Below are positions 6,991-64,000 of a stretch of DNA of 64,000 bases, piece after piece. Origin of the DNA: Myxococcota bacterium. Its GTDB lineage: Bacteria > Myxococcota > B64-G9. The stretch covers positions 186,001 to 250,000 of the forward strand of contig JAKLGA010000004.1 in NCBI GenBank assembly GCA_022710975.1, in the 5' to 3' direction. The stretch's first letter is position 1, and the number at the start of each line of letters is the position of its first letter. Below the pieces are notes generated by a model, which was not told the DNA's origin, ran no database searches, and was given only the letters and a program-made list of their open reading frames with translations. The position numbers were made by a program, and so were the translations under genes.

Positions 6991-8145
6991 CTATTCCTCG
7001 CCCACATAGACTGCGGTCAGGCCCTCGGCGGTCGGCGTCTCCTTGCCGGCAGCGTTCGGGTTGGCCTCCAGGATCTCCCTCATCAGCACGAGAGCGCGGC
7101 AGGCGGCGCTGGTCTGGAACGCCAGACGGAGCGGTGTGAGCGCGCCGTCCTGGAACCGCCGGTAACGCTGCTCGGTGCTCAGGTCCGGGACATGTCCGAT
7201 GAGCTCGCGGGTGTCATCGAGGACCAACGGCAGGTGGAGATCTCCGAAACTCCGGGTCCTGCCCGGCGGCTCGGAGCCCCAGCGGTAGTGCTCCTTCACG
7301 TAGGCGGCGCGGTCGCCCTCCGGGACGTAGCGGAGGACGCCGCCGAGCGCACCCTCCAGCGCCTCCCGCGAGGCCGGGTTGTCGAGGTAGAGCCAGATGC
7401 TCGGCCTCCGCGAGACGAGGAGCTCGGTGATCTCTGCGGTCAGCTTGAAGTGCTCAGGCTCCCAGGCTCGAAGGCTGTTGCAGCCTGCTTGGCCCAGACC
7501 CGCGGCCGAGCATATGTGCGCCAGCAACGAGGCGGCGTTGAAGGCCATGGCGGCGTACTCGCCGGCGGTCTCCACGCGACCCTTGTCGAGCTCGTGGAAG
7601 GCTAGCTTCACGACCTCCTGCCAGAGCTGACGGAGCTCCTTCGTGTCAGCCTCGATGCTCGCACCCTGCCTGGGCGCCTGATCCCGGTAGTGGCCGGCGA
7701 TGCCGTTCACCTTGGCGCGGAGCTTGTTGTCCTCCCGCCACTTGTACTCCTCGATGACGCAGCTGATGTCCGCGCCGAGCTCCTCCCTGAACTCGTCGAG
7801 CTTCTTGCTCATGTCCTGGAGGCCGACCTGGATTTCCTGGATGCGGCCATCGATCTTGTTCAGCTTGTGGCAGACCACGGCGAAGCCGGCGACGGACACT
7901 CCGACGTTCACGATGCTTGCCGCGGCCGAGATGTTGGCGGCTAGCTGCGCCGACTGGAGCAGGCCCGGCAGCGCCTTGAGGGCCTTCTCGCCGACGGGCT
8001 GGAGCCACCCGGCGATCGAACCCTTCTGCTTACCACTCCCCTCGACGTAACGGAACGCGCCGTCCGCCGCGAGCTCGACGGCGCCCTTGACCAGCAGATC
8101 CTTGATCTTGCCCTTGGCCGTGGCCAGGATCTCGTCGGGTATCAT
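6991..8145 (-). CDS. Protein with hydrophobic hairpin and coiled coils, possibly membrane-inserting (first gene of operon)
   Basis: A 384-residue protein of unknown function. Residues 62-92 are a continuous apolar, Ala/Gly/Val-rich stretch (SAAASIVNVGVSVAGFAVV) placed between amphipathic helices, followed at 95-125 by a charged helix (KIDGRIQEIQ...DMSKKLDEF). A hidden hydrophobic hairpin between long helices recalls alpha-helical pore formers or membrane-sensing defence proteins; this is comparison only. The C-terminal half is mixed, with no motif I know. GGAGGGG lies seven bases before ATG 8145. It leads a three-gene operon with a tail-anchored coiled-coil protein and a PD-(D/E)XK-like protein. 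Confidence 0.68.
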   Translation of the reverse strand: MIPDEILATAKGKIKDLLVKGAVELAADGAFRYVEGSGKQKGSIAGWLQPVGEKALKALPGLLQSAQLAANISAAASIVNVGVSVAGFAVVCHKLNKIDGRIQEIQVGLQDMSKKLDEFREELGADISCVIEEYKWREDNKLRAKVNGIAGHYRDQAPRQGASIEADTKELRQLWQEVVKLAFHELDKGRVETAGEYAAMAFNAASLLAHICSAAGLGQAGCNSLRAWEPEHFKLTAEITELLVSRRPSIWLYLDNPASREALEGALGGVLRYVPEGDRAAYVKEHYRWGSEPPGRTRSFGDLHLPLVLDDTRELIGHVPDLSTEQRYRRFQDGALTPLRLAFQTSAACRALVLMREILEANPNAAGKETPTAEGLTAVYVGEE

Positions 8146-8418
8146 CTCTCGACCCCTCCAGGGAGGCCTAGGCTAGCCTTCGGCTGACCCGTTGTCCTCG
8201 TGCATCCCTTCCAGCTCCTCTGCAATGGATGGCATTGATGTATCACGAATCATGGACAGGGAGAAAGTCGACCGATCCACCTCTCACTTCCACCCGAGAA
8301 TTGGGGCTTGTCCCCGACCTTGTGCAGGTGCCTTGCACCGGAGGACCTGGGGGAGGGCGCGGCCTCGGGGCCGCCCTGTCATACCCCCGCGCTACCCTGC
8401 CTCCTGGAGGTGGCGAGG

Positions 8419-9471
8419 ATGGCGCTGTACGTGAAGACCGTGCTGCCCAACGGCCGGACCCTCGGGGAGCGGTTGGTCGAGCGGTTCCCGCTTGGGTTCA
8501 CGCTGGCGGAGCTGCTGGCGCTGCCCGGCCTGTCCTTCGAGGACCGCGAGGAGTTCCGCTGGGGCCACGCCAGGGGCGCGCGGGAGCTCCTGCTCGGGGA
8601 CGTCGCCTGCCTGCGAGACCAGCACGACGGGGCCCGCTGGAGGGTAGAGGACCGGCGCGGGGACGCCCGGAGATGGCTCCTGGAGGTGCTCGGCAAGGCC
8701 GAGATCTTCCCGGGCTGGCCCGTGGACCTGGGGAATCCGAAGTACGTGCTCGGGCTCTTTCAGGCCGCGGCTGCCTTGCCCAACCCGGCGCAGCGGGAGG
8801 ATCCCCAGGTCCACGCCCCCGCCGATGTCCGGCTCGCCTGCGAGCAGGTGGCCGGCGAACGCGCCGAGGAGCGCCAGGTGCCGAGCGCCCTCACGCCGGA
8901 GGCCGTGCGGAGCCTGGTGAGCGCCGTGACCTGTGCCCTCGCGGACCTCGAGTGGGAGCGGGAGGCCGACAAGTTCCCGGTGAGCGAGCTGCCGCTCGTG
9001 GTCGCGGCCTACGCGGGTGACCTGGCGGAGGTCCACCGGCTGCTCGAGCAGGGCGCCGCGGTGGACGAATTCGACTCCGCCGGGGATCGGGCGGCGAGCT
9101 GGGCGGCGGTGGCCGGGAACGCGGAGATGGTCAAGGCCCTGCACGCGGCCGGCGCGGACCTCACCCGCCGCGGGCCGGACGGCTGGAGCCTGCTGCACTC
9201 GGCCATGGAGTGCCCGGAGATGGAGCTGGTCCAGTACCTGCTGGACCAGGGCGTGCCCGCGGACGCCAGCTCGCGGGACGGCACGACCGTGCTGCACATG
9301 GCCGCCTACTGCGGCGACGAGGCGGTGATCGATCTGCTGGTCTCGCGCGGCGCCGAGGTCAACGCACTGGCGCACGGCGATACCCCGCTCGACTTCGCCA
9401 CGTCGCTCGGCCTGCGCGAGACCGCCCGGGCGCTCCGGAAGCACGGGGGCAAGTTCAGCATCGACCTGTAG
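8419..9471 (+). CDS. Ankyrin-repeat protein
   Basis: A 350-residue cytoplasmic protein. The C-terminal half (about 192-345) has four ankyrin repeats, with units such as LPLVVAAYAGDLAEVHRLL, DGWSLLHSAMECPEMELVQY, DGTTVLHMAAYCGDEAVIDL and GDTPLDFATSLGLRETARAL. They probably form a protein-binding solenoid. The N-terminal 190 residues show no domain I recognise. There is no signal peptide. GGAGGTGGCGAGG upstream supports ATG 8419 over a TTG at 8308. It is divergent from the three-gene operon; the 273-base gap between them shows no strong promoter. Confidence 0.82.
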   Translation: MALYVKTVLPNGRTLGERLVERFPLGFTLAELLALPGLSFEDREEFRWGHARGARELLLGDVACLRDQHDGARWRVEDRRGDARRWLLEVLGKAEIFPGWPVDLGNPKYVLGLFQAAAALPNPAQREDPQVHAPADVRLACEQVAGERAEERQVPSALTPEAVRSLVSAVTCALADLEWEREADKFPVSELPLVVAAYAGDLAEVHRLLEQGAAVDEFDSAGDRAASWAAVAGNAEMVKALHAAGADLTRRGPDGWSLLHSAMECPEMELVQYLLDQGVPADASSRDGTTVLHMAAYCGDEAVIDLLVSRGAEVNALAHGDTPLDFATSLGLRETARALRKHGGKFSIDL

Positions 9472-9507
9472 CCCTGGCCATGCCTGCCAGGACATGGCAC
9501 TTGAGGA

Positions 9508-9610
9508 GTGGGTTTCGGGTATCTGGTATCGGGTGTCGAGAGAAGAACGCAGTTCCAGGTTCCTGGTTCCACGTTCCAGGTTCCACGTTCCACGTGTCTC
9601 GTGCTTGGTA
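9508..9610 (+). repeat. Short-period tandem words
   Basis: Intergenic stretch built of repeated words: GGTATCTGGTATCGGGTGTCG, then several copies of GGTTCC(A/T)CGTTCCA-type units. Similar words recur at 17548-17575 and 26575-26605. It is not coding. Confidence 0.6.
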
Positions 9611-9620
9611 CCTGGTGCCT

Positions 9621-9680
9621 ACCCCTCGAAGCCTGCCCGGGGCGATTCACACTCGGGGGGTCCGCAAATTCCAGCCAGTT
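9621..9680 (-). repeat. Dispersed 3'-end repeat, copy 1
   Basis: One of four copies of a roughly 60-base element. In plus-strand order it has CCCCTCGAAGCCTGCCCGG, then GATTCACAC, then a GGGGTCCGC-type block and CCAGCCAGTT. It lies 70 bases past the stop of the leftward gene that ends at 9750. The other copies, at 16715, 17433 and 19493, have the same orientation and the same position after a leftward gene. Confidence 0.7.
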
Positions 9681-9749
9681 GCAGGAGGGTGGCACCTGGG
9701 CGAGGGGGGCGTTGGCCCCTGGACCCGGGTGGGTGTGCGGGCCGCCGCG

Positions 9750-11537
9750 CTAGGGACAGGTGATGAGGCAGTGCTGCTGTGCTTCGTTCGCGCAGGCCTG
9801 GTTCCACATCCCGTAGCAGTACCAGAGTTGTGCTGCGGCGCAGGCGCGAATTGGATCGGAGTCGCAGCCAGTGGACGAGCAGCAGGTGTGGTGCCTGTTG
9901 CGAGTGTAGCTCAGGTTGACCTCGCACTTGTCCGTCTGAAGGGTGGACGCGATGTCCTGCTGGGCGAAGCTCCAGGAGCCCAGGACCTGGGTGCCCGCCT
10001 TGAGCGACACCGTCGTCGTCGTGTTTTCCTTGGCGCAGAAGTAGCGCTGGTTGCGCACGTTTGGGCCGAGGAGGATGTCGAAGACGTAGCTCTCCTCAGG
10101 ATCGATCTGCTGCGTGTCGTAGCCGCCCCACTCGATCGTGTAGTCGAAGAGCGCGATAGTCTGGCCGATACGCCAGTGATCGTATGTCACGATGTCATCT
10201 GTCCGCGAGGAGTTCCGCACCACGGGGTACACGTTCTGCTGCACTGACGTCGTATTGAGCGAGTTGATCTGGACGGAGTAGTCCCAGTAGGCGTGGTTGG
10301 TGTAGGTCCCTGGCATCTTCCGCATCACGTTGCCGGTCACCCGCGCTTCCCAGAAGTGGATGGGGTCGCATACCTGGTCGCCGCGTTTGGCCGCGTCGTT
10401 GTTGTCGTTCCAGGCCCAGGGCGGCTGGGCAGCGTTTTCGTCAGCGCCGATGCTGTGGTCGTTCCCGCGGAGGTTGATGTACGTCGACACCATGGGGCAG
10501 GCGTCGTAGGTGCCGCACGCTGCGGTGCCCGGGTAGGAGTCCCTGAAGAACCAGAATCCCTGCTTCTCATCGCCTAGCTGGCTGCTCCATGGATCTGAGT
10601 ACGATCTCCCGGCGGGGGGCCAGGTCTCGCCGTCGTTGAGCCCGATCAGCTCGTAGTGGCAGGGAATCTGGAAGAAGTCGCTCTGCGGGTCGAAGAACTC
10701 CGACCCGAAGTGGCAGGTCATGGCTGGGATGTCGGCGTGACCGCCGAAGTCGTAGAAGACGAAGGTGCCTTCGTAGAACTCAGCCTCCTGGACAGTCCTT
10801 GGGCAACCCGTGGTCATCGCGCTACGGATTGCGTAGATGGCATGGCCGCCGGCCTCGACCTGGAAGCATGGCTGCTCGGGATTCGTACCCTCCGTGAAGA
10901 GCTCGAGGGTCTGGGTGCCATCCTTGGCGTCCCAGTAGAGCCCGTCGTCGTTGTTGTCGCTGCGGAGCCTGACGTCGATGGTCCCGTGCGCGACCGTGGC
11001 GGCGGCGTAGAGGTGACCCAGGCAGTTGCAGCCGGGCTCGGAGGCCGGATCAGGACCCACCAGTAGAAACACGCCCTCCAGATCGTTCTCGTGCTCCTGC
11101 TCGGCGCCCAGATCGTCGCTGTAGTCCTGGCTGTGGAACAGGTAGTACCCGATGAAGGAGAAGCTGCCGGCCCGGCTCACCGAGTAGTACACGTAGGCGG
11201 GGCGGTGATCTGTTACCACGGTCTCGAGATCCTCGCCCACGTCGTGGTACTCGAACGGGTCCAGGGCGTGATTCTGGTTGTCCCTCCCTTGGTAGTTGTA
11301 GTCGAAGTTGAAAGAAGTGAACTCGTCGCGGTTGATGGCGTCGTGGGAGTCGTTGGTGTCCTGGTAGAAGCGGGGCGCCCAGTGGGCGGCGATCTCGTAG
11401 TCCGAGATCAATGGGCAGATGCACAGCGGATCCGAGCGGCTGGCCAGGTCTTCGCCAGGCCCGGTGCCGCACGCGCCGGGCCCGCATACGCCCAGCAATA
11501 GCATCAGAAGAGAAGCGGTCCAGAGTCTCGTGGCCAT
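9750..11537 (-). CDS. Large secreted protein with HENDLEG motif (Vps62-like comparison)
   Basis: A 595-residue exported protein of unknown function. An N-terminal signal peptide (TASLLMLLLGVCGPGAC) is followed by an aromatic, acidic chain rich in Asn/Asp. Notable segments are AAHWAPRFYQDTND, AYVYYSVSR, GYYLFHSQDYSDD and HENDLEGVFLLVG. This arrangement resembles the Vps62-type secreted/vacuolar family, where an HxNDxEG motif is conserved (tentative). There are many cysteines, including a C-terminal cluster, which fits a disulfide-bonded envelope protein. GGGAGG six bases before ATG 11537 sets the start, two codons after an upstream ATG. Confidence 0.72.
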   Translation of the reverse strand: MATRLWTASLLMLLLGVCGPGACGTGPGEDLASRSDPLCICPLISDYEIAAHWAPRFYQDTNDSHDAINRDEFTSFNFDYNYQGRDNQNHALDPFEYHDVGEDLETVVTDHRPAYVYYSVSRAGSFSFIGYYLFHSQDYSDDLGAEQEHENDLEGVFLLVGPDPASEPGCNCLGHLYAAATVAHGTIDVRLRSDNNDDGLYWDAKDGTQTLELFTEGTNPEQPCFQVEAGGHAIYAIRSAMTTGCPRTVQEAEFYEGTFVFYDFGGHADIPAMTCHFGSEFFDPQSDFFQIPCHYELIGLNDGETWPPAGRSYSDPWSSQLGDEKQGFWFFRDSYPGTAACGTYDACPMVSTYINLRGNDHSIGADENAAQPPWAWNDNNDAAKRGDQVCDPIHFWEARVTGNVMRKMPGTYTNHAYWDYSVQINSLNTTSVQQNVYPVVRNSSRTDDIVTYDHWRIGQTIALFDYTIEWGGYDTQQIDPEESYVFDILLGPNVRNQRYFCAKENTTTTVSLKAGTQVLGSWSFAQQDIASTLQTDKCEVNLSYTRNRHHTCCSSTGCDSDPIRACAAAQLWYCYGMWNQACANEAQQHCLITCP

Positions 11538-11706
11538 GTCCATCCTCCCTCGCGGATTAGTTGCCCCCACTTCATGACTCGCTCTTGCTGAGCGTTGAAC
11601 CTCGAACTCCCCTGGAAGCCGTCGAGGGATCCTTTACGCCCCTCCCGGCAGGGCTCCCGACTCCGCCGGTCCTCCCGCGCACCCCGCTCCTGTCGGGTTC
11701 TGGCTG

Positions 11707-11735
11707 ACCGTACCATCGACCTGGCGCGAGGTCAA
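11707..11735 (-). promoter_or_regulatory. Sigma-70-like promoter for the 9750-11537 gene
   Basis: On the minus strand: TTGACC, 17-base spacer, TACGGT. It would leave a leader of roughly 165 bases before ATG 11537. Confidence 0.5.
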
Positions 11736-11757
11736 ATGATGTCGGGTTCGGGAGCGC

Positions 11758-12081
11758 GTGTGGCGTCGCACCGGCTGCGGCGGCCCCGGAGGCGGTGGCC
11801 TGGCATCTGAGGCCTGGGGGGTCAACACCTTGATCGAGATGCACGAAGTTGCCAAGGCGCTGGATCTCTACAAGGTGAAACGTAGCGCGTACCCGACTGC
11901 AGCAGAGGGGCTGAAGGCGCTGGTTCTGGGTGGCGAGCTTGAGAAGCTTCCCACGGATGCCTGGGGAAATCCCATCGTGTACAGCATCGAGGAGAGCGGA
12001 CACAGGTACAAGCTGACCTCACTCGGCGCGGATGGCAAAGAGGGCGGGGCAGGAGTCGATGCGGATATCGTCGTGGAGTAG
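11758..12081 (+). pseudogene. Type II secretion pseudopilin GspG-like C-terminal fragment
   Basis: From about residue 25 the frame matches the globular domain of the major pseudopilin of type II secretion: ALDLYKVKRSAYPTAAEGL, then LPTDAWGNPIVY and a C-terminal YKLTSLGADGKEGGAG segment that would bind calcium in real GspG. The essential prepilin cleavage site and the N-terminal hydrophobic helix are absent; the sequence before residue 20 is Gly/Arg-rich and not a pilin start. No other gsp genes are near. It is probably a dead fragment or a pilin-like domain re-used without a leader. The exact 5' boundary is uncertain. Confidence 0.65.
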
Positions 12082-41839: not shown

Positions 41840-44800
41840 ATGGGTGCGAGCTTGCGTCTCCACGCTGCGATCCTGGTGCTGCTGTCGACCGGCTGGCTGC
41901 TCGCCGGCCCGGTCGGGGCCGCGCCGCCCAGCCCCCCCCTCGACCTCACCGGAGCGCTGACGCGCGAGGCCGTGGAGACCCTGGACGGCTGGATGGAGGG
42001 ATTGCCCTGGGCGCTGGACTGGGACGCGCTGCTGGCCGAGCTGGAGAAGGGCGGCCCGGGGGAGCTGGCCCGCTACGCCCGCGCCGCGAGCTGGCTGGCG
42101 CGCGGCTCGGCCGGCCACGCCGAGGCCGCCCTGGATGAGCTGCGCGCGCTGCGGGCCGCGGCCCCGCCCGGGCTGGCGGCGAACCTGCTCGTGTCCATCG
42201 GCCGCTGGCAGCTCCAGCTCCGGCACCCGGGCGACGCGCTGGCCAGCCTGGAGGCGGCCGCGGTCGAGCTGCGGCGGCTGAAGGACGGCCGCGGGCTGGC
42301 CCGGGCGCTGTACCTGCAGGCCATGGGCCTGATCGCCCAGTCCCGGCGGCCGTGCGACGCCCTGCCGATCATCGACGAGCTCCTGGTGGTGGCGCACCTG
42401 GCCGGGCTGCCGCGCTACACCGAGGCCGCGGAGCGGCTGCAGGGCGAGTGGCGCAAGGCCATGGACGAGCTGGAGGACTACTTCGGCCGGGCGCGGGCTC
42501 GGCTGTCCACCTTCCCGCCCTCCATCGGCATCCCGGAGGACGCCGATCTGGTGGCCTTCGTGCCCGGCGGCCTGCTGATGAACGGGGACACGGACGACCA
42601 GGTGTCGGCCTCGGCCCCGCGCCTGGCGCTGTTCGACGGGTTGCTGCTGCGCACCCGCAAGCTGCCCGAGGACGATCTCGAGCTACGCGGCTCGGCCGTG
42701 GACGGGCGCGGCCGGGTGTGGGTGGCCACCCAGCGCGGCCTGTACCTGCTCGACGACGACCGCTTCAGCCACCTGGTCAACCCGGCCCTCCCCGACGAGG
42801 CCGAGAACGGGCTGAAGGCCGCCCTGGCCAGGCCGGAGCCCGCGGGCGTCGGTCGGCGCGCGCTCGGGCTCCCCTCCAACGTGGTGAACGAGGTGAAACC
42901 CGGCCCGGACGGTCGCCTGTACCTGGCGACCGACGCGGGCCTGGCGATCTGGGACGAGGCCTCGGGCGCGCTCGAGGTGGTCACGGACAGGGACGCGCCC
43001 ATCGCCCGCAAGCTCGAGCGCGTGGCGCCCGTGCCCGGCGGGGAGGTGGTGGTCGCCTGGCGCGACGAGTACGCCGTGCGCGACCGGAGCGGCCGCTGGC
43101 AGCGCTTCCCCTTCGAGTTCCCCGCCCTGGCGGGCAAGGCCTCGGGCAAGCTGTTCGGGCTGCTGGTGGACGCGCAGGGCCGCGCCTGGGTGCACGGACT
43201 GCTCGGGGCGCTGCGGCTGGAGGGCGCGGAGATCACCCGCGTCGTGGACCGCTCCTTCCAGGCCATGACGCGAAACGTCAACCACGTGCTGATCGCCCGG
43301 GACGGGGCCTCCTGGTTCGCCACCCCCGACGGCGTCTGCCGCCAGCAGGGCCGCGGCTGCGCCGCCCTGGACGAGGGCCGCTGGCTGGCCGCCGAGTGGA
43401 CCCTCGATCTCCTCGAGGGGCAGGACGGCGCGGTGTTCGTCTCGGCCTACCTGGGCGGGCTCTACCGCCTGGCGGCGCCGCACTACCGCACCTACGGCAT
43501 GGTGGACGGCTTCGTCCAGCCGATGAACACCACCGTGGAGCTGCAGGCCGGCGCGCTCACCTTCGTCCAGCCGCGCGGCCTGACCCGGCTCGAGCCGCGC
43601 ACCGGTCGCTTCGACCACTACCTGTTCGGCAACGAGGGGCTGCCGCGCGGGGTGGTGTCGACCCCGGTGGTGATCTGGCTGGCCGACGGACGCCTGGCCA
43701 TGGTCGACCCCGAGATCGACGACGGCAAGCGGCTCATCCTGTTCGATGGCCGGCAGGGCTCCAGCCTGGGCCCGGAGGACGGGTTGCCGGAGGAGCGGGT
43801 GCGTTCGCTGTGCGAGGTGGCCCCGGGCCGGCTGTGGCTGGCCACCAAGACCGGGGTGCACGAGCTCGAGCTCGCGTCCCGCGCGCTCCGGCCCGCGCCC
43901 GGCCTCGAGGCGCTGGCCGGGCACGAGGTGACCACGCTCGTGTGCGCGCCGGGTGAACCGGTGTGGCTGGCCACCCAGGACGACCAGGTGTGGAGCCTGG
44001 AAGGCGGGCGGGCCGCCCGGCTGGACCTGGCCGGGCTCGGGCTGTCGGGCAAGCCCCGCGGCCTGCTGCGCAGCCCCACCGCCGGCCGGATCCTGGTAGG
44101 CGAGCGGGACGTGCTGCGCTTCGCCGGCGGCGCCTGGTCGCGGGTGCCGGTGGAGGCGGAGTCCTTCGACTTCCGGGTGCGCGACGTGGAGCTCGACGGG
44201 CAGGGCGTGCTGTTCTTCGCCACCGAGAGCGGGGTGCTGGCCACCGACGGGGAGAGCTGGACCCGGCTCGGCGTGGCCGACGGCCTGATCACCGACTCGG
44301 CCCACGAGATGGTGCTGCACGAGGGCCGCCTGTGGATCACCGGCAACGGCGGGGTGGTGGACTGGGGCTGGCCGGCCTCGCCGCCGCCCGAGACCTTCCT
44401 GCGCTGGTCCGACCAGGTGATCGCGCTCGATCCCCAGGGCCGGCCGCGGCGCTACCGCGTCTCCGATGGGGTGGAGAAGCCCGGCTGGGTGCTGCTGCGC
44501 GGCCTGGCCGGGGCGCTGGAGGTGCCCGAGGACGAGGCCGGGCCGACCCTGGCGGGCCTGGCCGGGGTGGTCGGCGAGGTCGGCGGCGAGCCGCCGCCCG
44601 TGGTGATCGACCGCGACCGGCTCGAGCTCCAGGTCCGCGCCGGCACGCCCTGGGAGGACGACAAGCCCTCGGAGCTCACCTGCTTCCATCGCCTGGACGG
44701 CGGGCCCTGGACGCGCGTCGAGGGGCTGGCGTTCGAGCTGCGCGAGCTCGCCGACGGCGAGCACCTGCTCGAGGTGCGCGCCACCGACCGCAACCTGCGC

Positions 44801-47800
44801 CGCGATCCGACCCCGGCCCGGCTGCGCTTCCGGGTGGACACGCCGGTCTCGCCCTGGCAGGTCGCCGCGGCCGGGCTGCTGGTGGTGGGGCTGGTCGGCT
44901 GGAACCGGCGGCGCCTGCGCGACCTGTGGCGCCGCTACCAGCACCGTTCCTTCCGCCCGATCGAGCCGTCCCCCTTCCACCCGGGCCGGCCGGCCGAGGG
45001 AGCGCAGCTCGTCGGGCGCGAGGCGGAGCTCGCCGAGATCCAGGCCCTGGCCCGTTCGGGCGGCTCGGCCGCGGCCGTGTGGGGGCCGCGCGGCAGCGGC
45101 AAGCACTCGTTCGTGCGCGCCGTGGCCGGCCGGCTGCGCCAGGATGGCGTGCTGGTGGTCGCGGCCGACCTGGCCGCGGCCTCGGCCGGCGCGGACGCGG
45201 CCGCGCTCATCGCCGGCCTGGCGAACCAGCTCGAGCTGGCGGCCGCGGAGGCCGGGCTGGCGCGGGAGGCGGAGCCGGGCCTGTCCCTGTCGGCCTCCGG
45301 CGTGGCCGGCCCGCGGCTGGACGAGCCGGTGGGCGGCAACACCATCTCGCGCAACCCGGACTCGCCCAGCGGCCCGGGCTCGTCGGAGTCGAACCCGTTC
45401 CAGCGCCTGGGCCGTTGCCTGGCCCGCCTGGAGCGTGCCCGGCCCGGGCTGCGCGTGGCGCTGCTGCTGGACAACGCCGAGGCCCTGGGCATGGCCGCGG
45501 ACGCCGACGCGGCCTTCGGCTCCTTCCTGTTCCCGTTCCTCCGCAGCCTGGTCCAGGAGCGCCCCAGCCTGTGCCTGGTGCTGGCGCTGGAGGGCCACTG
45601 GTTCGATCTGTCGCGGCGCTTCGAGGCGCTGTTCGCCTTCGCCAGCCCGCTGCACATGGGCCGGCTGCCGGACGACCTGGTGCGGGCGCTCTTCGCCGAC
45701 GCCTTCCACGGGCGCGCCTTCCTGGACGAGCGCGCGCTCGGGCTGCTGGTGGCGCTGGCCGGCGGGCGGCCGGACTTCTGCCAGCTCATGGGCCAGCGGC
45801 TGGTGGAGTCGCTGAACGCCGAGAAGACCAACCTGTGCTCGCCGGCGCTGCTGGAGAACGCGGCCGACGCCCTGGTGGCGGCCGATCCGGACCGGCGCAT
45901 GGAGAGCTCCTGGCTGCAGCTCAACCGCGAGGAGCAGCTGGTGGTGTGCGCGCTGGCCGAGGGCGGGCCGCTCGGGCCCGAGGCGATCCTGGCGCGCCTG
46001 CTGCAGGCCGAGGTGCGTCTGCTGCCCGAGGAGCTGCGCCGCACGCTGCTGGCCCTCGAGCGCAGCGGGCTGGTCGTGCCGCGCGAGGGGTTGCACGCCC
46101 TGCGGGGCGAGCTGGCGCGGCGCTGGATTCTCCGCCACCACGACGTGGGCTCGGTGGCCTCCGCGGCCCAGGAGTACGTGGGCGCCTACCAGCTCCTCGA
46201 CAAGCTCGGGGCCGGCGGCATGGGCATGGTCTACAAGGCCCGGGACATGGCCCACGGCACCACGGTCGCGCTGAAGCTCCTGCGGCCCGAGCTGGCCGAG
46301 CACAAGCGCAGCCGCCAGCGCTTCCTGCGCGAGGCCCGCCTGGGGAAACGGGTGCGCCACCCGAACGTGGTGCGCATCCTCGACTACGGCGAGCAGGGCG
46401 GGAAGCTCTACCTGGCCATGGACTTCCTGGAGGGCCACAGCCTGGCGCGCTGGGCCCGCAGCCCCCGCCGGCCCGGGCCCCGCGCGCTGGCCGAGGTGGG
46501 CCGGGCGCTGGCCTCGGCGCTGGGCGCCATCCACAAGCTGGGGGTGGTCCACCGCGACGTGAAGCCGGAGAACGTGATGGTGGTGGGGGAAGCCGATCCG
46601 GCCCACGATCCCCTGTCGGCCGCGAACCTGCGCCTCATGGACTTCGGCCTGGCGGTGGGCGAGGACGTCTCCCGGGTGACCCGGGCCGGCTCGCTGCTGG
46701 GCACGCTCATGTACATGGCCCCGGAGCAGGCCCGCGGCCAGGAGGTCGACCCGCGGGCGGACCTGTACTCGCTGGGGGCGCTGCTGTACGAGCTGTGGAC
46801 GGGCCGGACGCCCTTCGCCGGCAACGAGGCCGTGGTGCTGGACGCCGTGCTGAACCACAAGCCGGTGGACGCCGTGGAGCTCCGGCCCGGACTGCCCGCC
46901 CCGCTGGCCGAGCTGGTGCGGCGGCTGATGGAGAAGGAGGCCGCCCGCCGGCCCGCCAGCGCCGCCGAGCTCGAGCAGCTCCTGGACGCCATGCTGCCCG
47001 GGTTGCCCGCCGACGAGCTCAGCGTGGAGACCGCCCTGCCCGCCGAGGCCGGGCCGGCCGTGGGCGTCACCGACGCGCCCACCCGGGCGGGGGTCATGTC
47101 CCGCGCGCTGGACGCCATGAAGCTGGAGAGCCGCCTGCTGGGCTCGCTGTCCTCGGCGGCGCTGAGCTCCGTGGGTGACGGGCTCGCCTCCCTGGACAAG
47201 GAGCGCGCGCTGCTCTACCGGGTCTCGGCCATCGTCGCCCGCGGGCCGGTCACGGCCGGGAGCCTGGACGAGATCCTCGGGCTGACCCGCGCGGCCATGG
47301 GCGCCAGCGGCGGGCTGGTGGCCCAGCTCGGCGCGGCCAGCGCCCTGTCCATCAGCGCTACCCTGGAGCACCCGCCCGGCGTGCTGGAAAGCTCGGAGGT
47401 GCTCGGCCCGCTCGTGCGCCAGTGCGTCGAGCAGCGCATGGGCGTGCTGTACCTGGGCGAGCCGGACGCACCGGCGGAGGACCTGGGCGCCTGCGCGGCG
47501 GCCCCGCTGTGGGCCGGCGAGCAGATCCTGGGGGCGCTGCTGGTGGATCGGCGCGGGCCCTCCGCGCGTCCGTTCGAGGACTCGGATCTCGAGCTGCTGG
47601 TGTGCGTCGGCTACCTGGTCGGGCTGGGGGTGGAGCGCGAGCGGCTGCTCAAGCAGGCCCTCGACCAGGAGCGGCTGGCGGCCGTCGGGCAGATGCTGGC
47701 CGGGGTGGCGCACGATCTGAAGAACCCCATGGCCGTGGTGTACGGCTACGCCGAGATGCTGGAGGAGCCGCTGGCGCCCGAGCGCACGGCCGCCGCCGCG

Positions 47801-48325
47801 CGCATCATCCGCCGCCAGGTGGACGAGATGCTCGACATGATCGGCAACCTGCTGGCCTTCTCGCGCGGCAAGCGGGAGCTCGCCCTGGCCGAGATCCAGC
47901 CCAAGGCCTTCGCCGAGGAGATCCGCGAGAACCTCGACGTGGCCTGCCGGGATCGCCAGGTGGTGCTCCGGCTGGAGGCGGACGGCGAGCCCGTGCGCCT
48001 CGATCCCTCCCGGTTGAAGCGCATCGTGCTCAACCTGAGCAAGAACGCCCTGGAGGCCCTGGGCGGCCAGGGTCAGCTCGAGATCCACCTGGTGGGCGCC
48101 GCCGCGGGGCTCTCGCTCGAGGTCCGCGACAGCGGTCCCGGTCTGCCGGCCGAGGTCCAGCAGCGGCTGTTCGAGCCCTTCGTCACCCAGGGCAAGGTGG
48201 GAGGCACCGGGCTGGGCCTGGCCATCGTCAAGCGCTTCGTGGACGACCACAAGGGCGACATCCAGGTGGAGTCCGTGCGGGGCCAGGGCACCTGCTTCCG
48301 CATCCACCTACCTGCGCCCACCTGA
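41840..48325 (+). CDS. Giant hybrid sensor: TPR, beta-propeller, TM, AAA-type ATPase, Ser/Thr kinase, GAF, histidine kinase
   Basis: A 2161-residue membrane receptor. An N-terminal signal/anchor (8-30) leads to helical TPR-like repeats (about 50-210), then WD-like propeller units of the two-component-regulator propeller type (about 280-880; GRVWVATQRGLYLLDD, GRLYLATDAGLAIWD, GRLWLATKTGVHELE), a Y_Y_Y-like beta domain ending before a single TM at 1008-1025, a NACHT/AAA-type ATPase with P-loop GPRGSGKHS (1082-1090), a complete protein kinase (1450 to about 1720; K1479, HRD 1571-1573, DFG 1601-1603, MAPEQA), a GAF domain (about 1795-1935), and a histidine kinase: H1958 in GVAHDLKNPM, N box near 2069, GTGLGLAIVKRF near 2130. 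All catalytic residues are kept, so both kinases may be active. No receiver domain is attached or adjacent. Confidence 0.9.
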   Translation: MGASLRLHAAILVLLSTGWLLAGPVGAAPPSPPLDLTGALTREAVETLDGWMEGLPWALDWDALLAELEKGGPGELARYARAASWLARGSAGHAEAALDELRALRAAAPPGLAANLLVSIGRWQLQLRHPGDALASLEAAAVELRRLKDGRGLARALYLQAMGLIAQSRRPCDALPIIDELLVVAHLAGLPRYTEAAERLQGEWRKAMDELEDYFGRARARLSTFPPSIGIPEDADLVAFVPGGLLMNGDTDDQVSASAPRLALFDGLLLRTRKLPEDDLELRGSAVDGRGRVWVATQRGLYLLDDDRFSHLVNPALPDEAENGLKAALARPEPAGVGRRALGLPSNVVNEVKPGPDGRLYLATDAGLAIWDEASGALEVVTDRDAPIARKLERVAPVPGGEVVVAWRDEYAVRDRSGRWQRFPFEFPALAGKASGKLFGLLVDAQGRAWVHGLLGALRLEGAEITRVVDRSFQAMTRNVNHVLIARDGASWFATPDGVCRQQGRGCAALDEGRWLAAEWTLDLLEGQDGAVFVSAYLGGLYRLAAPHYRTYGMVDGFVQPMNTTVELQAGALTFVQPRGLTRLEPRTGRFDHYLFGNEGLPRGVVSTPVVIWLADGRLAMVDPEIDDGKRLILFDGRQGSSLGPEDGLPEERVRSLCEVAPGRLWLATKTGVHELELASRALRPAPGLEALAGHEVTTLVCAPGEPVWLATQDDQVWSLEGGRAARLDLAGLGLSGKPRGLLRSPTAGRILVGERDVLRFAGGAWSRVPVEAESFDFRVRDVELDGQGVLFFATESGVLATDGESWTRLGVADGLITDSAHEMVLHEGRLWITGNGGVVDWGWPASPPPETFLRWSDQVIALDPQGRPRRYRVSDGVEKPGWVLLRGLAGALEVPEDEAGPTLAGLAGVVGEVGGEPPPVVIDRDRLELQVRAGTPWEDDKPSELTCFHRLDGGPWTRVEGLAFELRELADGEHLLEVRATDRNLRRDPTPARLRFRVDTPVSPWQVAAAGLLVVGLVGWNRRRLRDLWRRYQHRSFRPIEPSPFHPGRPAEGAQLVGREAELAEIQALARSGGSAAAVWGPRGSGKHSFVRAVAGRLRQDGVLVVAADLAAASAGADAAALIAGLANQLELAAAEAGLAREAEPGLSLSASGVAGPRLDEPVGGNTISRNPDSPSGPGSSESNPFQRLGRCLARLERARPGLRVALLLDNAEALGMAADADAAFGSFLFPFLRSLVQERPSLCLVLALEGHWFDLSRRFEALFAFASPLHMGRLPDDLVRALFADAFHGRAFLDERALGLLVALAGGRPDFCQLMGQRLVESLNAEKTNLCSPALLENAADALVAADPDRRMESSWLQLNREEQLVVCALAEGGPLGPEAILARLLQAEVRLLPEELRRTLLALERSGLVVPREGLHALRGELARRWILRHHDVGSVASAAQEYVGAYQLLDKLGAGGMGMVYKARDMAHGTTVALKLLRPELAEHKRSRQRFLREARLGKRVRHPNVVRILDYGEQGGKLYLAMDFLEGHSLARWARSPRRPGPRALAEVGRALASALGAIHKLGVVHRDVKPENVMVVGEADPAHDPLSAANLRLMDFGLAVGEDVSRVTRAGSLLGTLMYMAPEQARGQEVDPRADLYSLGALLYELWTGRTPFAGNEAVVLDAVLNHKPVDAVELRPGLPAPLAELVRRLMEKEAARRPASAAELEQLLDAMLPGLPADELSVETALPAEAGPAVGVTDAPTRAGVMSRALDAMKLESRLLGSLSSAALSSVGDGLASLDKERALLYRVSAIVARGPVTAGSLDEILGLTRAAMGASGGLVAQLGAASALSISATLEHPPGVLESSEVLGPLVRQCVEQRMGVLYLGEPDAPAEDLGACAAAPLWAGEQILGALLVDRRGPSARPFEDSDLELLVCVGYLVGLGVERERLLKQALDQERLAAVGQMLAGVAHDLKNPMAVVYGYAEMLEEPLAPERTAAAARIIRRQVDEMLDMIGNLLAFSRGKRELALAEIQPKAFAEEIRENLDVACRDRQVVLRLEADGEPVRLDPSRLKRIVLNLSKNALEALGGQGQLEIHLVGAAAGLSLEVRDSGPGLPAEVQQRLFEPFVTQGKVGGTGLGLAIVKRFVDDHKGDIQVESVRGQGTCFRIHLPAPT

Positions 48326-48373: not shown

Positions 48374-48441
48374 GACCTCGGCTGGCAGGGCTGACAACCG
48401 GGTCCGGGGTGCAGGTGGGGTGGGGCGAAAAGGAGTCGGGG

Positions 48442-49311
48442 ATGTTCGCCCAGAAGAGAAGTTGGCTGGCGTTTGGCGGATTGCTATGGATGGTCGCCTG
48501 GCCGGGCGCCGGGCTGGCGAGCGACCGGTTGCCTCCCTCGGCTCAGGCGAAATCATTCGTCAGTACGTTGGGTTGGGACCATCAGCTCGCCGCGCGTTGC
48601 CCCGCGGGGGTGCACGCCGGGGTGCTGGCCCTGAGCGGCGCTCCGGGCAGCGAGGCGGCGGCCGCAGACCTGGCCGAGGCTCTCCAGGGGGAGTCCCTGG
48701 GCAGGATCAAGGGGCTGGAGCTCCAGGTGAGCGTCATCAAGGTCGGCGGCCCCGGGCAGCTCGAGCCCGCCGTGGCCAGGGATGGGGTGAACGTGCTGAT
48801 GCTGGCGCCGGGCGTCGACCCCCTGCTGGAAGAGGTGGGCCGGGTGGCGCGACTCCACCGCATCCTGGTCGCGAGCGGCGAGCCGGGTCACCAGGGCACG
48901 GCCGCGCTGGTGTTCATCGGCCAGGGCGGGTCCTCACGCATCCGGGTCAACCTCGAGGCGGCCGAGTCCCAGGGCGCCGTGTTCGACGCGCGCCTGCTCC
49001 GCCTGGCCGATCTCAGCGGTGCCCGGCCCTCCTTCGAGAAACCCGACGCCGTCCGCGCGCGGCGAACCGCCGGCCGCGATCCGGAGTATCCGAGGATCGC
49101 CCAGGCCGCCGGGGTGGAGGCGACCGTCGTGGTCAAGGTGCGCATCGGGCCCGAGGGCAAGGTCGAGGAGTTCAGCTTCCTGAAGGGCAACGAGTACTTC
49201 GAGGACGAGATCAGCGAGGCCATCCGCGGCTGGCGCTTCCAGCCGCGCGTGGTGGACGGCCGGCCCGTCAGCACCACCACCACCTTCAAGTTCGAGTTCC
49301 GCAGGCAGTGA
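48442..49311 (+). CDS. Exported YfiR-like (DUF4154) protein fused to a TonB-like C-terminal domain
   Basis: A 289-residue exported protein. A signal peptide (1-27, LAFGGLLWMVAWPGAGLAS) is followed by a YfiR-like domain (about 35-185; HAGVLALSGAPG, VNVLMLAPGVDPLLEEV, HRILVASGEPGHQGTAALVF). In the known family such proteins regulate a membrane diguanylate cyclase. The last 80 residues are a TonB C-terminal domain (DPEYPRIAQAAGVEATVVV, GPEGKVEEFSFLKGNEYFED, WRFQPRVVDGRPV), which would contact an outer-membrane partner. The pairing is unusual. AAAAGGAG before ATG 48442 fixes the start. It follows the giant sensor gene on the same strand. Confidence 0.72.
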   Translation: MFAQKRSWLAFGGLLWMVAWPGAGLASDRLPPSAQAKSFVSTLGWDHQLAARCPAGVHAGVLALSGAPGSEAAAADLAEALQGESLGRIKGLELQVSVIKVGGPGQLEPAVARDGVNVLMLAPGVDPLLEEVGRVARLHRILVASGEPGHQGTAALVFIGQGGSSRIRVNLEAAESQGAVFDARLLRLADLSGARPSFEKPDAVRARRTAGRDPEYPRIAQAAGVEATVVVKVRIGPEGKVEEFSFLKGNEYFEDEISEAIRGWRFQPRVVDGRPVSTTTTFKFEFRRQ

Positions 49312-60884: not shown

Positions 60885-62606
60885 TTGCGCGCCCGCCTGC
60901 TCATCGCCCTCCTGGCCATGGTGTTGCTGCCCCTCGGGCTGCTGGGCTGGCTGGGCGCCTGGCTGGTCGGCAGCCAGGAGCGCCTGGTGCGCCAGTCCTT
61001 CGAGGAGCTGGCGCTCGCCCAGCTCGGGGACTGGCGCGAAACCATCCACGCGGTGGTGGTCGAGCGCGAGCGGCGCCTGCTCGGCTCGCCCGAGCTGCTC
61101 GGGGCGTTGCGCGGCGACGCCGAGGCGCTGCGGGCCTACGTGCGCAAGAACCCGCTGGTGACCGCGCTGCTGGTGCTGGATCCGGAGGGCCGGCTGCTCC
61201 ACCCGCCGCCCTTCGGCCCACGCACCCAGCAGGAGGACGACTTCCTGCTGCGGGCCAAGCCGCTGCTCGAGGACCGCTCCGCGCTGGTGCAGCCGGTGGG
61301 GAACCCGGACCTCGAGGGCGTGGACCAGGGCAAGGACGCGAGGGACACCAGGGGCGCCAAGGACAATCTGGACACGAGGAGCGTCACCTGGGGCAAGGAC
61401 GTGGTGCCCGGGCAGCAGGTGGAGCAGCAGGCGCTCGCTCCGCCCCGGCCGGCCCCCCCGGCCGAGGCCGGCCCGGGCCGGGGCTGGTACGTGTGGTACC
61501 ACGGCAGCGACCTGGCCCTGCTCTTCTGGCAGCGGGAGCCCGGGGGAAGGGTGGTGGGGGCCGAGCTCGACCGGGCCCGGCTGATCGTCGACCTCATCGG
61601 CCGCCTGCCGGCGGGGGCGGGCGAGGAGCCCGGCGATCGCCCCCAGGCCGCCTACGCGCTGCTGGACGCGCGCGGGGAGGTGCTCTACCGCTGGGGCCCC
61701 TACCGGCCGCGCGGCGGCGAGGCCCCGGTGGCGCGCATGGCGCTGCGCGCCCCGCTGACCGCCTGGCAGCTCACGGTGTACGCCCCGCAGAGCAGCCTGG
61801 GCGGGGAGGGGGTGCGCCGGACGGGCTGGCTGACCCTCGGGCTGGGGCTGCTCGCCCTGGCGCTGGCGCTCGGTGGCCTGGCGTGGATCTTCTACCGCGA
61901 GCACACCCGCGGGCTGCGGCTGGCCGAGCGGCGGGTGAGCTTCGTCAACCAGGTGTCCCACGAGCTGAAGACGCCGCTGACCAACATCCGCATGTACGCC
62001 GAGCTGCTGGCCGAGCGCCTGGACGAGGACGACACGGACGCCGGGCGCTACCTGGGTGTGGTGGTGGCCGAGGGCCAGCGGCTGGGGCGGCTGATCGACA
62101 ACGTGCTCACCTTCGGCCGGCACCAGCGCGGGGCGCTGCGCCTGCGGTTCGCTCCCGCCGTGGCGGACGAGATCGTCCGGCGGGCCGTGGAGGGCTTCCG
62201 CCCGGCGCTGGCCGAGCGCGGGGTCGAGATCGAGCTCGCGCTGGGCGCGCCGGAGGCGCTCGGGCTGGACGCCGACGCGCTCACCCAGATCGTGGACAAC
62301 CTGCTCTCCAACGTGGAGAAGTACGGCGCCCAGGGTGGCCGCGTGCGCGTCGCCACCCGCCAGGAGGGCGCGCGCCTGGTGCTCGGCGTGGCCGACCAGG
62401 GCCCGGGCATCCCGGCCGGCGATCGCGAGCGGGTGTTCGCCCCGTTCGAGCGCCTGCAGGACGCGCTGACCGAGGGGGTGGCCGGGACCGGCATCGGGCT
62501 GGCCATCGTGCGCGAGCTGGCCCGGCTGCACGGCGGGGACGCCCGGGTGCTGCCCAGCGAGCGCGGGGCGGTGTTCGAGGTGACGCTGGAAGGGAGGCTC
62601 GCGTGA
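60885..62606 (+). CDS. Sensor histidine kinase
   Basis: A 573-residue membrane kinase. A TM helix at the N-terminus (5-28), an unassigned periplasmic domain (about 30-310), then TM2 (about 313-337, WLTLGLGLLALALALGGLAW). HisKA has the phosphoacceptor H359 in VSHELKTPLTN. HATPase has an N box (IVDNLLSNVEKYG), the G1 box (DQGPGIP) and GTGIGLAIVREL. The start is TTG 60885; GAGGAG lies about ten bases upstream. It overlaps the response-regulator start as GTGA and is its cognate kinase. Confidence 0.9.
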   Translation: MRARLLIALLAMVLLPLGLLGWLGAWLVGSQERLVRQSFEELALAQLGDWRETIHAVVVERERRLLGSPELLGALRGDAEALRAYVRKNPLVTALLVLDPEGRLLHPPPFGPRTQQEDDFLLRAKPLLEDRSALVQPVGNPDLEGVDQGKDARDTRGAKDNLDTRSVTWGKDVVPGQQVEQQALAPPRPAPPAEAGPGRGWYVWYHGSDLALLFWQREPGGRVVGAELDRARLIVDLIGRLPAGAGEEPGDRPQAAYALLDARGEVLYRWGPYRPRGGEAPVARMALRAPLTAWQLTVYAPQSSLGGEGVRRTGWLTLGLGLLALALALGGLAWIFYREHTRGLRLAERRVSFVNQVSHELKTPLTNIRMYAELLAERLDEDDTDAGRYLGVVVAEGQRLGRLIDNVLTFGRHQRGALRLRFAPAVADEIVRRAVEGFRPALAERGVEIELALGAPEALGLDADALTQIVDNLLSNVEKYGAQGGRVRVATRQEGARLVLGVADQGPGIPAGDRERVFAPFERLQDALTEGVAGTGIGLAIVRELARLHGGDARVLPSERGAVFEVTLEGRLA

Positions 62607-63342: not shown

Positions 63343-64000
63343 TCAGCGCGGATCGGTCACCCGGCCCAGGAACAGGATCGCCCCGGTGGGCAGGTCGCGG
63401 ATCAGGTACACGAAGGGTCGGTCCAGGCTGAGCGCCATGAAGGGCGGGGCGCTGGTGTCGCCCACGATCACCGCGGTGGCCGCGGCCGCCTCGGTGCCGG
63501 CCTCGTTCACCGACACGAAGGCCTGGTGCAGCACGTCGTGGATCATCAGCGCGTGCTCGGGGTTCATCCCGGAGAAGTCGGCCGCCGGGCTGAAGGCCAC
63601 CTCCATGCCCAGGGCGGAGAGCAGCGCCTTGATGGAGAAGGTCTCGGTGGCGAACGTCCAGCGCGGCATGGCGAGCTCGACGGTGTACTCGCTCAGCCCG
63701 CCCAGGATGGCGCCGAGCTCCTCGCCGTCCAGCGTGGCCTCGAAGGTCTCGAAGGTGCCCGCGTCCGGGACCACCAGCACCATGTCCAGCTCCTCGCCGT
63801 CGTAGGGCAGGGCCACGGCCTGGTAGCCGGGCCCCTCGGCCCCCTGGAACTGGAAGGTCTGGTGCATGAGTGGCACCCGCGCGCTGGTGCCGTCCAGCAG
63901 GTGGAAGTCTCCGTCCGCCGTGTCCGCCTCCTCGAACGGCTGGTTCCAGGCGGCGTTGAAGTAGATGGCGTTGGTCAGCACCAGCTTGGTGTACTCGCTC
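63343..64000 (-). CDS. Serpin-family protease inhibitor (C-terminal part; N-terminus beyond window)
   Basis: The visible 219 or so residues are the C-terminal half of a serpin, running off the right edge with no start. Marks of the fold: LTNAIYFNAAWNQPFE (strand s3A, Asn-Ala-Ile-Tyr-Phe), LDMVLVVPD, a reactive-centre loop hinge VNEAGTEAAAATAVIV, and the closing PFMALSLDRPFVYLIRD...GAILFLGRV. The hinge P17-P8 consensus (E-x-G-T-E-A-A-A-A-T) is intact, so it is probably inhibitory; the P1-P1' bond lies near VGDTSAPP. A secreted inhibitor of serine or cysteine proteases is likely. Confidence 0.9.
   Translation of the reverse strand, partial: SEYTKLVLTNAIYFNAAWNQPFEEADTADGDFHLLDGTSARVPLMHQTFQFQGAEGPGYQAVALPYDGEELDMVLVVPDAGTFETFEATLDGEELGAILGGLSEYTVELAMPRWTFATETFSIKALLSALGMEVAFSPAADFSGMNPEHALMIHDVLHQAFVSVNEAGTEAAAATAVIVGDTSAPPFMALSLDRPFVYLIRDLPTGAILFLGRVTDPR

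Follow-up and report, generated by a model that had tools for sequence, protein, structure and literature searches.

Contact between Ser/Thr and His-Asp signalling in bacteria has mostly been studied as crosstalk between separate proteins. Both kinase types are joined on one chain in the HstK-type proteins (cbSTKIII; 'trifunctional serine/threonine-protein kinase/ATP-binding protein/sensor histidine kinase' of PGAP; fungal Chk1/Mak2/Mak3), and to our knowledge such fusions are devoid of a propeller-type external sensor. Members of the HstK class consist of an N-terminal Ser/Thr kinase (STK) and a C-terminal histidine kinase (HK) with a GAF domain in between (PMC2176072, PMC1262709), and fungal Chk1 follows the order STK, AAA-16, GAF and HK (PMC9069115). 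The sensors of the hybrid two-component systems (HTCS) of Bacteroidetes combine two seven-bladed propellers with a YYY domain, and their ligands are oligosaccharides (PMC3243724). A BT4663-like orphan sensor kinase of Clostridium perfringens, ReeS, has neither a receiver nor a DNA-binding domain nor a known partner (PMC3762733).

The gene described here, which encodes a predicted membrane receptor dual kinase, extends over positions 41840..48325 of the plus strand of the window, the whole 64,000-nucleotide stretch of Myxococcota DNA that was analysed, and runs from ATG to stop over 2161 aa without an internal stop codon and with coding-like codon-position GC values of 0.79/0.50/0.97. Pfam identifies, in this order on the chain, Reg_prop, AAA_16, Pkinase, GAF, HisKA and HATPase_c; matches of the protein to NCBIfam are at the domain level only, each under every cut-off shown. 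An overlapping minus-strand open reading frame of 1874 aa (42683-48307) was rejected as a real gene on account of the codon-position GC and the plus frame kept among orthologs; it mirrors the high-GC codon usage of the real frame. The first-pass annotation had proposed that an extracytoplasmic propeller, an STK and an HK reside in this one 2161-residue gene, on which reading frame, Pfam and orthologs agree.

Three further genera of the source family harbour intact orthologs of 2180-2202 aa with unbroken frames, which are 45-47% identical over the full length and possess the same domains in the same order, and in a fourth other genus the gene is split across the ends of two contigs. After an initial search of 58 related genomes, the gene was found in 5 of 195 genomes of the phylum, and a scan of 84,980 species, represented by one genome each, retrieved four loci, which match the four orthologs already found. 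Neither among the 195 genomes of the phylum nor among the 84,980 species was an ortholog encountered outside the source family, in searches that pick up sequence relatives and that the same domain order built from unrelated modules would escape. Within the family the distribution is patchy, with the gene absent from four of nine genomes.

All features of the protein lie on the plus strand. The extracytoplasmic part, modelled as aa 1-1030 with moderate confidence (mean pLDDT 67), begins with a putative signal peptide (aa about 1-30; 41840..41929), seen as a hydrophobic helix in the model and in hydropathy, and continues with a helical, TPR-like region (aa 42-221; 41963..42502), which gives a weak match to a TPR-chain profile (E 0.008). 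Residues 235-896 (42542..44527) form a beta-propeller region, within which Reg_prop is matched at aa 648-670 and which comprises about 59 strands in about 14 blades, equivalent to about two 7-bladed propellers. In profile searches the region hits the HTCS sensor structures 4a2l (E 4e-13), 3v9f and 3ott, in agreement with the fold search, in which the best 15 solved structures are the periplasmic domains of the HTCS BT4663, BT4673 and BT3049 (E 1e-22 to 1e-25). An Ig-like beta-sandwich (aa 927-999; 44618..44836) occupies in this moderate-confidence model the position of the Y_Y_Y domain in HTCS sensors, without a match to Pfam Y_Y_Y. It is followed by a single transmembrane (TM) helix supported by model and hydropathy (aa about 1003-1027, 44846..44920; 1005-1029 in the model). 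As the residues just behind this helix are strongly basic, the kinases should be cytoplasmic.

A second model of moderate confidence (aa 999-2161, mean pLDDT 64) is consistent with a TM helix, then an AAA core with winged helix, the kinase and GAF domains, and finally the long helices of the DHp together with the catalytic domain, with solved HKs and Mycobacterium tuberculosis PknB among its fold matches. The first intracellular module (aa 1056-1444; 45005..46171) combines AAA_16 (Pfam 1056-1247) with a winged-helix tail. Its Walker A (45083-45112), GPRGSGKHS, retains glycine and lysine and is devoid of the Ser/Thr after the lysine; the residue in this position is H/H/H/Q/R across the five copies, compared with GKS or GKT in AAA relatives and HstK proteins, and the Walker B Asp is additionally lost in one copy (L019). 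The pairing of Walker A GxxxxGK[ST] with a Walker B Asp, by which an active P-loop ATPase is recognized, is not found in this module, and the initial description of the P-loop as intact has to be corrected. Since the Mg-binding Ser/Thr is missing, the AAA module is probably non-hydrolysing and STAND-like, and the AAA/winged-helix region might act as a coupling module and not as an ATPase. A profile search against the PDB returned weak matches only for the AAA ancestry, and relatives within the phylum are remote; at one of the remote loci (L097), a 697-aa protein places AAA before STK, so that the phylum offers an earlier case of this arrangement. At another locus, an open reading frame (L098:4406-8722:-) joins an N-6 DNA methylase and a type I specificity domain with an AAA module related to that of the fusion.

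The Ser/Thr protein kinase (Pkinase, aa 1450-1707; 46187..46960) is separated by a linker from the GAF domain (aa 1810-1929; 47267..47626), behind which HisKA with an HD(L/I/M)xxP H-box (aa 1949-2010; 47684..47869) and HATPase_c (aa 2055-2160; 48002..48319) complete the chain. The STK motifs (Gly loop, VAIK Lys, alphaC Glu, HRD, DFG and APE) as well as the HK motifs (H-box His, N box, G1, F and G2) are kept in each copy extending over the respective region, which bears out the first-pass annotation for VAIK-Lys, HRD, DFG, HisKA His and G box. By their sequence the two domains are predicted to be an active eukaryotic-like Ser/Thr kinase and an active histidine kinase respectively, and the retention of all tested catalytic residues at about 45% overall identity argues that both are under selection.

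The absence of a receiver on the chain and of an adjacent response regulator, noticed initially, holds for the chain and for the flanking genes tested; the nearest other HK in the window is located at 60885-62606, and a carbohydrate locus was not seen beside the dual-kinase gene. Neighbours differ between the genera and none is conserved, which makes the gene look like a self-contained unit. Just downstream (48409-49311, plus strand), a 300-aa protein with a weak YfiR/DUF4154 match and a TonB C-terminal domain is encoded; it was rejected as a partner because it is not kept beside the orthologs. Near the end of the window (63343-63981, minus strand) lies a bacterial serpin-like gene, the frame of which matches the C-terminal part of the profile only.

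The closest relatives of the HK module are free-standing GAF-GAF-HKs of the phylum of about 600 aa (up to 289 bits) which, compared with the dual kinase, are soluble, have two GAF domains and are encoded by a separate gene, as is any STK. Their genes lie directly downstream of polA on the same strand at 14 of 20 loci across the phylum (L057-L076), two of the other six being cut by contig ends, and the source genome itself has such a locus (L064, about 7426-11870). Judged by titles and abstract openings, no paper tying a histidine kinase to polA was found, and the pairing looks unusual. Tandem, tightly packed genes for a GAF-GAF-HK, an STK and an Smr-domain protein (L057 3160-6658, L058 4820-8343, L060 5265-8834, L075 5945-9403) recur in three families of the phylum, one represented by two genomes and the others by one each. 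Apart from the fusion, the GAF-GAF-HK group is hence associated with STKs at the least by gene adjacency. This adjacency in three other families suggests that the two kinase types work together, and is to be taken as suggestive only because the STKs beside the GAF-GAF-HKs form in the tree one clade distinct from the fused STK.

The reading that we favour, and hold to be somewhat more likely than not, is that of a single-pass membrane receptor kinase in which an external ligand would act through the TM helix and the AAA module on an STK output and a GAF-gated HK output. The exported helical repeats, the double propeller and the Ig-like domain would bind a ligand outside the cytoplasm (probably a fragment of a glycan or of some other polymer), and binding outside would move the single TM helix. 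The AAA/winged-helix module, positioned directly between TM helix and STK, could relay the signal by changing the dimer geometry, which would control the PknB-like STK and the GAF-gated HK on one chain, and the HK would pass its phosphate to an unlinked response regulator.

Rather doubtful, although the strongest of the alternatives, is a serial cascade in which the STK would phosphorylate its own linker, GAF or HisKA region and thereby gate the HK, with His-Asp phosphotransfer as the sole output. The linker between STK and GAF, about 90 aa long, contains several Ser/Thr residues in all copies, and, as outlined above, genes for the related HKs adjoin STK genes in other families; the linker is, however, poorly conserved. 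Less credible still is that only one of the two kinases delivers the actual output while the second is a vestige or has a regulatory role, for instance with the HK dimerizing and scaffolding an STK receptor. This would be in line with the missing partner regulator nearby, and HATPase and DHp could constitute a dimer platform, but none of the residues tested in either core has been lost in any of the genera despite an overall identity of about 45%. In this protein the signal must enter by way of a single TM helix, with the two kinases covalently attached downstream of it, so that domain-inactivating mutants could tell parallel from serial use.

A dual kinase of the HstK lineage with shuffled domains and a gained sensor would explain the identical set of STK, AAA_16, GAF and HK on one chain; in both, GAF is placed between the kinases. 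The four HstK comparators from three phyla (two from Nostoc, one each from Bacillus badius and Mesorhizobium ciceri) have without exception the order STK, AAA_16, GAF, HisKA and HATPase with the STK first, an AAA_16 with intact P-loop and usually a TPR-like stretch. In contrast, the exported propeller and the TM helix come first in the protein described here, and the AAA module (1056-1247) with its degenerate P-loop precedes the STK (1450-1707), so that the deviation from the HstK order, put forward initially, is seen against four of four comparators. The TPR_CHK1 region between AAA and GAF, present in three of the four comparators, has no Pfam match here, and the AAA module matches AAA_16 weakly with 45 bits versus 127-148 in HstK proteins. 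In the trees, the STKs of the fusion proteins fall into a single clade (100/99) amid STKs of the phylum, from which the HstK STKs are set apart on a 100/100 branch, and the HKs of the fusion proteins likewise make up a single clade (99/91) inside the phylum-local GAF-GAF-HK group (92/89), which does not contain the HstK HKs; as the HstK HK rows are long-branched, the separate ancestry is less firm for the HK than for the STK. Descent from HstK was rejected on the basis of the trees and the domain order, and we regard this origin as highly improbable. An HstK-like order was also observed in a 1628-aa protein (L100:5052-9935:+) composed of STK, AAA_16, GAF and GGDEF, with a diguanylate cyclase replacing the histidine kinase.

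The placements of STK and HK in the trees indicate that the two were joined independently of HstK, and the dual kinase seems to be convergent with HstK, equipped with an external sensor similar to that of Bacteroides HTCS. We tentatively put forward, as a possibility of slightly less than even weight, that dual Ser/Thr-His kinases arose in bacteria a second time and independently, here as a transmembrane receptor whose pseudo-ATPase would couple one external signal to both chemistries, with the STK possibly gating the HK. The apparently independent origin suggests that fusing a Ser/Thr kinase to a His kinase has been favoured by selection on more than one occasion. The concern that an assembly chimera or a frameshift fused separate genes, raised with the first-pass annotation, can be dismissed, as three independent full-length orthologs with unbroken frames in other genera, together with the split copy in a fourth, demonstrate the gene to be real and nothing was found in favour of an artefact.

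With the Bacteroidetes HTCS BT4663, BT3049 and BT4673, the dual kinase shares the large exported double propeller, the TM helix and HisKA/HATPase (PMC3243724), and its modelled beta-sandwich before the TM helix may correspond to their Y_Y_Y domain. HTCS, however, carry receiver and AraC-type DNA-binding domains and are without AAA, STK and GAF, whereas the chain described here ends after HATPase_c, thus without receiver and AraC HTH, and has an extra helical region ahead of the propeller. ReeS resembles it as an HTCS-like sensor kinase without receiver and DNA-binding domain, and neither STK nor AAA belongs to the description of ReeS in the sections of that report used here (PMC3762733). Dual kinases and HTCS are both known already; the order propeller-TM-AAA-STK-GAF-HK was not found in the part of the literature on them that was covered.
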